Shown in pieces: positions 1,236-6,310 of a stretch of 23,196 bases of DNA. The DNA lies in the IMG/VR virus record IMGVR_UViG_3300042902_000053, positions 1 through 23,196 of that record, one strand, 5' to 3'. The notes under the pieces are model-generated. The model had not been told where the DNA came from. It saw only the letters and a list, made by a program, of their open reading frames with translations, and made no database searches. The translations under genes were made by a program, and so were the position numbers. Position 1 is the first letter of the stretch, and the number at the start of each line of letters is the position of its first letter. Source of the DNA: a virus.

Positions 1236-1388
1236 TTATTAACTACCTGTCAATCATGCAGCTAAGCCTATAACCTGCATGGTAGCTGTAGGCTTAACCA
1301 CTAGGCCAGTGGGGAGAGTGCTTAGAAATGAATGTGTGGATAAAGTGGCCCACACTGACAGGTGCATAATCTAACTATGGAGACTAAC
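1236..1388 (+). promoter_or_regulatory. Candidate structured RNA / 5' leader with nested inverted repeats
   Basis: This gap between genes holds several perfect inverted repeats. An outer 8-bp stem pairs 1245-1252 (ACCTGTCA) with 1356-1363 (TGACAGGT). Inside it, TAAGCCTA 1263-1270 pairs with TAGGCTTA 1289-1296. ATGCAG 1256-1261 can pair with CTGCAT 1275-1280, which together with the previous helix makes an H-type pseudoknot. CCACT 1298-1302 pairs with AGTGG 1308-1312. GTGTGG 1334-1339 pairs with CCACAC 1350-1355 and abuts the outer stem, so the two could stack. A competing helix CAGCTA 1259-1264 / TAGCTG 1283-1288 excludes part of the pseudoknot. It matches no riboswitch, tRNA or ribozyme class I recognise. 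The pairings are seen directly; a functional RNA is inferred. Confidence 0.45.
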
Positions 1389-3781: not shown

Positions 3782-6310
3782 ATGAAATACGTTCCTGGAC
3801 ATGGCCCATTAGGAGCTAAGCTTATGATATTGGGCGAAGCTCCATCTACTCAGGAAACTATTGCAGGTATGCCATTTGTAGGAGCATCAGGAAAAGAACT
3901 AGATAGACTATGCTTCGATGCCGGGATTCAACGGGGCAACTGTTGGGTGTCCAATGTATGTAAATATGAAGTTCCTCCCAACCTACCCGGTAAGAAGATT
4001 CCTTTTACAATTAGAGCTAAAAATATTGGAATAGATATGGAGACTCAAATCCATGACTTACAAGAAGAAGTTAATCAAATTAAGCCTCATTGTATATTGG
4101 CTCTTGGTGGGACTGCTCTTTGGGCTTTATCTGGAAAGACTAAAATCGGACATTACCGTGGTTCTATTATGCACGGTATGGGTGTTAAATTTGTTGCTAC
4201 TTTTCACCCTGCTCATCTTTTACATCAAACCTCGGGAGTAGAATTCAAAGGATACTGGAATAGACAGGTAATGATATTTGACTTTAAAAGAGCTAAACAT
4301 CAATCCAGTTTTCCTGAATTAGTCCTTCCCTCACGAATACTCGAAATTTGCAAAAATTCGGCTCAACTAGCCGAATTTAGAAATCGTTATAAAGATAAGA
4401 TTCGGATGGCTGTGGATATTGAGGCTAATGGAACCTGTATACCTGTTTGTATTGGGCTTTCATGTAATAAGCATCATGGGATGACAATTCCACTTTGGAA
4501 CTGTGATGGTATTTCAACTATTCCTGATTCCGATTTAGTTCAAATATGGATTATTTTATCGGAGTTATTGTATGAAAAAGAAATCATTGGACAAAATTTT
4601 AACTACGATAGAGATAAAATCAAACGACTCGGATTTATTATCCAAACTTTGGCATCAGATACGATGCTCAAAGCCCACGCAATTAACCCTGAACTTCCCA
4701 AGAACCTCGCATTTAACACGTCTATCTTTACAGAGGAACCCTTCTATAAAGACGAGGGGATGTATAAGGGTAGTATCTCTGACCTACTTACCGGATGTGC
4801 GAGAGATGCTTGTGTAACACTTGAAGTAGATGAGAATATGGATGCTGACTTGGATGAAATAGGTCAACGTCCATTCTTTGAGAATTTCTTAATGAAATTA
4901 CCTGAACTCTATTGGGGAATTGAACAACAAGGTATGGCTATTGATTCCCCTGCTAGAGATGCTCTAGTTCATAAATATGTAGCATGGGATGAAAGGACTA
5001 GATATGAATTATTCAAACTTGTGGGGGCGGAGATTAATGTTAATTCTCATACGCAAGTTGGCACATTACTATGGGATAACCTTAAACTCCCTCGCAAAGC
5101 CACGACGGGTGAGGAAGATATTACAGCCCTGCTTAACAGTCCAACTGCCGTTAAAAGACCTGAACATAGGCGAATCTGTGAGCTTATTCTTGAGGGTAGA
5201 CGGGTCAGAAAATCTATTTCCACTTATCTCATGGCGCTCCCAGACTATGACGGTAGAATGCGAACAACATACTTCCCCTGTCTTGATACTGGTAGAACTT
5301 CTACTGGACAACAAGACCCTCCTATTCGACCCACCGTTGAAGTAATAGATGAGAATGGGAAAAAGAAAACTAAAGTTCTAGGCACCGCATTTCAGACCAT
5401 GACTAAACATGGTGATATCGGTGCTGATATTCGTAGCATGTATATTCCTGATTCGGATGATGAAGAATTTGTCCAGGCAGATAGTTCACAAGCCGAAGCA
5501 AGAGTAGTAGCTTTATTGTCTGATGATGAAGATACATTAAGGATGTATGATGAACATGATATTCACGCTCTTACTGCTTCTTGGTTTTTCGGTGGCAGTG
5601 AATCTGATTATTCTAAAAAGATACTTGGTTACGAGCATCCTATTAGATTCGCTGGTAAAACTCTTAGACACGCAGGGCACCTCGGCGCAGGAAAGCGTAG
5701 GGCATCTATTGAACTCAACACTCAGGCTAGGAAGTATAAGATTCCTCTACAAATTTCGGAAGCGATTGCAGAGAGAGCACTTAAAATCTTCCACTCTAAA
5801 TCTCCTCGCGTTCAGACAATATTCCAAGCAGAGGTCATTGAAGCCTTAAAACGTAATAGACAGCTTATCGCTCCAGTTCCTTATGGTGTAAATGCTAGAG
5901 AAGGTGGAAAACGAACCTTCTATGAACGCTTTGGAGAAGATTTATTTCGTCAAGGATTTTCTTATCTTCCTCAACGTGCTGTATCTGATAATACTAAAGC
6001 AGCAGCTTTACGAATTAAAGAGAGAATTCCTATCATCAAGATAGTCATGGAGGCTCATGATGCTCTCTTATTCTGTATACCTATTGAAATGAAACCTATA
6101 TGGATTCCCATTATTAAGGAGGAAATGGAACGACCAATAGATTTCAGACATTGCACATTGATTCGTCATTCATTATCTATTCCATGTGATATTGAAGTAG
6201 GTAAAAACTATATGGACCTAAAGAAATTTAAGGACTTAATAATCACTAAGCCAGTTATAATTCCATCGAAACCTAAGTCTATTACTGATTCATTTATTGT
6301 AGGAGAATAA
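3782..6310 (+). CDS. polA: Uracil-DNA glycosylase / 3'-5' exonuclease / family A DNA polymerase fusion
   Basis: An 842-residue replicative polymerase. I use the ATG at 3782, just after the preceding stop; an upstream in-frame start (3737) would add a Leu-rich tail overlapping that gene. Residues 1-185 resemble UDG superfamily/SPO1-type domains: GEAPSTQE at 18-25, GMPFVGASG, and HP at 142-143. The Cys pair usual near the N-terminus of family 4 UDGs is absent. The exonuclease has DIE at 212-214 (Exo I), QNFNYD (Exo II) and ARDA (Exo III). Polymerase motif A is DSSQAEARVVA starting at Asp567, motif B runs from Lys626 (KTLRHAGHLGAG), and motif C is HD at 759-760. All key metal-binding residues are present, so it should be active in copying the phage genome. 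Motif B has His where Pol I has Phe762. Confidence 0.93.
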   Translation: MKYVPGHGPLGAKLMILGEAPSTQETIAGMPFVGASGKELDRLCFDAGIQRGNCWVSNVCKYEVPPNLPGKKIPFTIRAKNIGIDMETQIHDLQEEVNQIKPHCILALGGTALWALSGKTKIGHYRGSIMHGMGVKFVATFHPAHLLHQTSGVEFKGYWNRQVMIFDFKRAKHQSSFPELVLPSRILEICKNSAQLAEFRNRYKDKIRMAVDIEANGTCIPVCIGLSCNKHHGMTIPLWNCDGISTIPDSDLVQIWIILSELLYEKEIIGQNFNYDRDKIKRLGFIIQTLASDTMLKAHAINPELPKNLAFNTSIFTEEPFYKDEGMYKGSISDLLTGCARDACVTLEVDENMDADLDEIGQRPFFENFLMKLPELYWGIEQQGMAIDSPARDALVHKYVAWDERTRYELFKLVGAEINVNSHTQVGTLLWDNLKLPRKATTGEEDITALLNSPTAVKRPEHRRICELILEGRRVRKSISTYLMALPDYDGRMRTTYFPCLDTGRTSTGQQDPPIRPTVEVIDENGKKKTKVLGTAFQTMTKHGDIGADIRSMYIPDSDDEEFVQADSSQAEARVVALLSDDEDTLRMYDEHDIHALTASWFFGGSESDYSKKILGYEHPIRFAGKTLRHAGHLGAGKRRASIELNTQARKYKIPLQISEAIAERALKIFHSKSPRVQTIFQAEVIEALKRNRQLIAPVPYGVNAREGGKRTFYERFGEDLFRQGFSYLPQRAVSDNTKAAALRIKERIPIIKIVMEAHDALLFCIPIEMKPIWIPIIKEEMERPIDFRHCTLIRHSLSIPCDIEVGKNYMDLKKFKDLIITKPVIIPSKPKSITDSFIVGE

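Follow-up and report, generated by a model that had tools for sequence, protein, structure and literature searches.

RNA family A, a conserved four-way-junction RNA at a variable intergenic position in uncultured soil phages

The RNase III-type intercistronic processing hairpins of T7-like phages are irregular hairpins between genes of one transcript, and phi29 pRNA and the kissing-loop riboswitches are junction RNAs with a loop-loop contact. Ribozyme classes share phage gene neighbourhoods, and several RNA classes can occur at one kind of gene context (PMC4604425). The RNA described here, family A, resembles each of these in part. As with the hairpins of T7-like phages, it lies between phage genes in one predicted transcript, with a suggested role as a folded boundary, and its position is compatible with a T7-type RNase III site; it differs in being a four-way junction with conserved loops. 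With the phage self-cleaving ribozymes (hammerhead, twister, pistol, hatchet) it shares a compact, multi-helix form beside phage genes, but it shows no Rfam match and, as far as the letters tell, neither a recognisable core nor a cleavage site. Like orphan RNAs such as the RAGATH motifs, it is defined by covariation and conserved loops; its only RAGATH match, to RAGATH-7, is a chance one on the wrong strand (13.8 bits against a gathering score of 111.8). The proposed loop-loop contact in a junction RNA recalls phi29 pRNA and the kissing-loop riboswitches, whereas topology, sequence and gene context differ and no Rfam model links them.

Locus and family membership

The window, i.e. the whole stretch analysed, is a 23.2-kb virus record (IMGVR_UViG_3300042902_000053; 23,196 nt) from an uncultured soil phage whose relatives in IMG/VR form a clade of uncultured phages, many with contigs near 46 kb. 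Its + strand carries a Sak4-like gene, a 138-aa gene, the gap with the RNA, small ORFs and then the polymerase, a family A DNA polymerase that carries a uracil-DNA-glycosylase domain fused at its N terminus (3785-6310). The 138-aa protein is without a PHROG match or a significant Pfam match and is possibly a ssDNA-binding protein. None of the isolated phages in the collection searched encodes a relative of this protein, and a DNA search of isolated phages with the gap gave no meaningful match.

Relatives of the upstream gene were drawn from three sets of 80 IMG/VR loci. To find members of the RNA family, the gap downstream of the 138-aa gene was extracted from 80 relatives; DNA-pattern scans, which require exact words, and two further protein scans followed, and membership was defined by means of two covariance models, R1 and R2. 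Among the matches listed there are at least 16 distinct members, found in IMG/VR phage contigs and all belonging to one phage clade in one public viral collection. Member L518, absent from the training of both models, was recovered with an E-value of 3.6e-13. The RNA occurred once per genome in 7 of the 21 records searched. Every member found sits downstream of the same Sak4-neighbour gene. In nearly all of them the model hit starts 1-9 nt past the upstream stop codon, and in L089 it touches the stop; in L102 the upstream reading frame stops prematurely, leaving about 100 nt ahead of the RNA, while L182 has an additional ORF in between and a distant upstream protein. Stop-codon readthrough or bypass was rejected because the post-stop frame in the window closes within about 10 codons.

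With the Rfam 15 covariance models no family reached its gathering threshold for the window RNA or the other members, only tRNAs being detected nearby, and relaxed thresholds did not bring up a relation either. A 24-bit AdoCbl-II match in L313 was discarded since it lies mostly outside the RNA. Neither ARAGORN nor Rfam identified the RNA as tRNA or tmRNA. By the model, no credible cellular homologue lies in the 73 genome stretches that carry the core motif (best 18.8 bits), and the open-licence papers searched hold no description of the RNA. The family thus appears undescribed and, as a kind, would join the orphan structured phage RNAs.

Two further folded RNAs are predicted in the window. Positions 1778-1872 fold strongly (z -7.3) into a long closing stem with inner hairpins, kept in L001, L004, L008, L009, L010 and L012 with the inner part replaced in some. 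Positions 1875-1939 (z -5.8) have a 12-bp closing stem that covaries at 9 of 12 pairs across 8 loci, an inner ACGUGC...GGACGUAAAAUACU and then a terminator-like GCTTTTT. A phage-encoded cold-shock-domain protein (2146-2424) lies just downstream of the window's three RNAs.

Fold and covariation

The sequence-only reading had described the gap as a multi-branched, possibly pseudoknotted RNA of no known class. Its features as they now stand are as follows.

819-1235, + strand: upstream gene, an ORF of 138 aa adjoining the Sak4-like gene; constant across members
1245-1363, + strand: whole RNA, family A, from covariance models R1 and R2 with at least 16 distinct members
1245-1252, + strand: P1 5' strand, pairing with 1356-1363; two-sided changes at 8 of 8 pairs, 98.4% of cells paired
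1253-1261, + strand: P2 5' strand, pairing with 1275-1283; two-sided changes at 9 of 9 pairs; abuts P1
1262-1274, + strand: L2, a loop with CUAARCCUAUAAC conserved across most members, altered in L455/L519, L342 and L518
1275-1283, + strand: P2 3' strand, pairing with 1253-1261
1284-1288, + strand: J2/3, AGCUG here and UACUG in others; CUG invariant
1290-1293, + strand: P3 5' strand, pairing with 1320-1323; two-sided changes at 3 of 4 pairs
1298-1302, + strand: P4 5' strand, pairing with 1308-1312; two-sided changes at 4 of 4 counted pairs; length depends on the member
1303-1307, + strand: L4 (AGGCC), candidate loop-contact partner of L5
1308-1312, + strand: P4 3' strand, pairing with 1298-1302
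1313-1319, + strand: internal-loop strand GGAGAGU, conserved in the alignments
1320-1323, + strand: P3 3' strand, pairing with 1290-1293
1325-1333, + strand: J3/5, near-invariant GAAAUGAAU in the alignments
1334-1339, + strand: P5 5' strand, pairing with 1350-1355; two-sided changes at 4 of 6 pairs
1340-1349, + strand: L5, conserved AUAAAGUGGC
1350-1355, + strand: P5 3' strand, pairing with 1334-1339; abuts P1
1356-1363, + strand: P1 3' strand, pairing with 1245-1252

Since P1 abuts both P2 and P5 without linkers, the helices form a four-way junction of P1, P2, P3-P4 and P5. In the final alignment 94.7% of pair cells form, and 28 of the 31 pairs show two-sided changes (136 cells); in an earlier set of 13 members the values were 97.5% and 27 of 31. 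None of 500 shuffles reached the covariation score, and slid controls gave only 9-14 pairs and 11-24 cells. Having been fitted to this structure, the alignments are biased in its favour; a hand alignment of the stems gave the same changes, though likewise made with the stems in mind. On this covariation we conclude that the gap encodes a genuine structured RNA of about 119 nt on the + strand, with a conserved four-way junction. The search of related phages that the sequence-only reading had proposed did return compensatory stem changes, and its main claim, a functional multi-branched RNA belonging to no known class, is strongly borne out.

G-U pairs outnumber A-C pairs 24:2 on the + strand, which shows that the functional molecule is the RNA of that strand. 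A structure at the DNA level, for example a replication or primosome site in single-stranded form, would suit the location among replication genes, but DNA does not explain why G-U is tolerated 12 times more often than A-C, and this alternative is largely refuted.

The proposed comparison of the fold with shuffled sequence was unremarkable. The folding energy is -44.7 kcal/mol (z -1.57), with 11 of 200 shuffles equally good, and the conserved fold scores -37.7, so it is not the minimum-energy fold. Folding energy on its own would have missed the RNA and is not diagnostic. The inverted repeats from which the claim started are present at the coordinates given, and their density does exceed that of dinucleotide-preserving shuffles: 16 perfect helices of at least 5 bp against 9.9 (6 of 300 shuffles as high) and 2 of at least 8 bp against 0.18 (2 of 300). 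The excess is modest, and weak evidence alone.

Not all of the helices first proposed are kept. The outer stem 1245-1252/1356-1363 is P1, with covariation at all its pairs, and the hairpin 1334-1339/1350-1355 is conserved as P5. From the supposed H-type pseudoknot, the helix 1256-1261/1275-1280 survives as the core of the 9-bp P2, all of whose pairs covary. Its partner 1263-1270/1289-1296 pairs in 61% of cells, equal to shuffles, and its central G-C is found only in the window. The alternative helix 1259-1264/1283-1288, taken as a mutually exclusive switch, is unsupported. The pseudoknot and switch readings are therefore wrong, as homologues do not keep these helices and one of the strands belongs to P3 (1290-1293/1320-1323), which was missing from the first description.

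A contact between L4 and L5 (GGCCA 1304-1308 with UGGCC 1346-1350), also part of that description, is kept by most members: 94% of counted cells pair (permutation 85 of 5000), and L211 has two compensatory changes. L342 has lost the contact, and in L455 and L182 it is weak. Its support being partial, we consider this contact likely but unproven in family A.

The conserved 3' half could also be read as a short coding sequence (M-K/N-V-R-I-K-W...), e.g. a leader peptide, instead of RNA structure. This frame is open across the stretch in the 14 members examined, and a purine-rich stretch lies about 10 nt before its ATG. L211 and L455, however, have no ATG there, the frame stops 8 codons after its beginning in L089 and L342, the third codon position is invariant in AUA, and the changes are explained by P5 covariation. 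Coding is in our judgement highly improbable.

Exchange of elements at the slot

Closely related phages differ in what occupies the gap. The sequences of L001 and L002 agree at 99.7% over 2,473 bases. The match reaches the first bases of P1, breaks off there, 13 nt from the start of the stop codon, and returns 167 nt further on, the 167-nt stretch with the RNA being switched for an unrelated 46-nt stretch that holds a hairpin. A similarly precise swap of two other elements separates L046 and L050. On a tree of the upstream protein, built on few columns, the RNA requires 10 state changes; well-supported branches force at least 6 of these.

In relatives the slot contains other RNAs, simple hairpins, small ORFs or HNH-like genes, or is empty. 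The other RNA types (GAAUAA, UUCGUGGUGGUA, GUAAAAUGACGG and others) were identified by visual inspection. Hairpins with differing stems and a common UUCGUGGUGGUA loop are seen in L019, L021 and L058, and a long closing stem with internal motifs of GAAUAA/AAAUAA type in L038, L043, L061, L066, L074, L075 and L354. Some relatives have apparent pseudoknots with GUAAAAUGACGG. An apparent H-type pseudoknot with conserved GUAAAAUGACGGAA is found in L021, L339, L352, L359, L389, L526 and L549, and similar letters are also present in the third RNA of the window; L376 and L548 share a different apparent pseudoknot, in which a CAUGAAA stretch is conserved. The gap is without notable structure in L016, L028, L029, L037 and L041, which indicates that no such element is strictly needed. 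ORFs resembling HNH/His-Me-type endonucleases lie at the slot in L325 (1892-2248) and L391 (1892-2221), their Pfam match being below the cut-off; an HNH-like gene of this kind could drive exchange by gene conversion.

In this soil phage clade the slot may be a dedicated exchange site for structured RNAs, at which perhaps ten unrelated folds, family A being one, catalytic or counter-defence in nature, would be swapped like cassettes whose boundaries are nearly exact. We regard this as a possibility rather than a probability.

A related alternative is that the RNA is cut from the mRNA and acts in trans, binding a host factor, for instance as a decoy or in counter-defence, with the site as a hypervariable slot. 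The fast replacement by unrelated structured RNAs or small genes at one locus of near-identical phages speaks for it, as do the strong conservation of unpaired segments and the single copy per genome. Against it, the RNA is tied to one gene neighbour, near its stop codon, in every member found, shows no promoter or terminator of its own on the + strand, and has no cellular homologue among the genome stretches with the core motif. We consider a role in trans clearly less likely than not, though a serious rival.

Possible roles and their meaning

What follows the RNA changes between members: an acidic protein, a MATLRIQ-type protein, a MSIFNQ-type protein, or a tRNA in L063 and L102. Directly 3' of the RNA, tRNA genes were observed at 3226-3310 in L063 and 1413-1495 in L311. 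The RNA ends about 25 nt upstream of the next start codon in the window, and in several members a ribosome-binding site or a start codon lies 20-30 nt beyond its end. This spacing would suit control of the downstream gene by a leader or a riboswitch-type RNA, as the sequence-only reading had suggested. With a downstream gene that differs between members, beside a constant upstream gene, no link to one gene class was found, and there is no conserved switch helix, the alternative helix having failed. We regard such a regulator as quite unlikely. The other roles suggested in that reading, a regulatory small RNA and a processing element, are possible.

A self-cleaving ribozyme of a new class, processing the polycistronic mRNA with P1 as closing helix and the junction and loops as catalytic core, is also unlikely, if less so, and stands as a serious rival. 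The compact multi-helix fold, the conserved unpaired nucleotides and the possible loop contact are what such a molecule would show, and several structured RNAs beside one phage gene are reminiscent of ribozyme classes sharing phage neighbourhoods (PMC4604425). Known ribozymes were, however, among the Rfam models that gave no match, no conserved cleavage site was identified, and plain hairpins can take its place. A hammerhead-like CUGANGA...GAAA, noticed from the letters, was dismissed since its position 6 varies and the geometry of P5 does not fit.

The reading we favour, tentatively and at somewhat less than even chances, is that of an element which works in cis between the cistrons and marks where the upstream message ends on its 3' side. 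Such a reading is suggested by the constant upstream gene, the varying downstream gene, the position relative to the stop codon, the sense strand and the replacement by plain hairpins; as the slot is occupied by several unrelated RNAs with closing stems as well as by plain hairpins, it probably asks for a stable folded boundary, which many structures could provide. No promoter-like site was found near the RNA and, with regard to an intrinsic terminator, no U run follows P1 or P5 on the + strand. As part of a polycistronic mRNA the RNA would act in cis, its fold separating the upstream gene from what comes after. By itself or through a bound protein, it would shield the upstream message at its 3' end or fix where that end lies, and the level of this message would thereby be set apart from that of the downstream genes. 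The conserved loops of family A might be its own tertiary lock or a protein-binding surface. On the other side, the dozens of conserved unpaired nucleotides exceed what a simple protective hairpin would require, and rapid replacement suits a counter-defence locus equally well.

What is new is a well-supported RNA family without described relatives and, more unusual still, an exchange site, one exact position at which entire folded RNAs are traded between close phage relatives. If the RNAs are mRNA boundaries, the site shows how many folds serve one job, and if they are counter-defence elements or ribozymes, it would be a ready catalogue for new ones. Should the reading as a dedicated exchange site be true, the slot would be the RNA counterpart of an anti-defence gene island.
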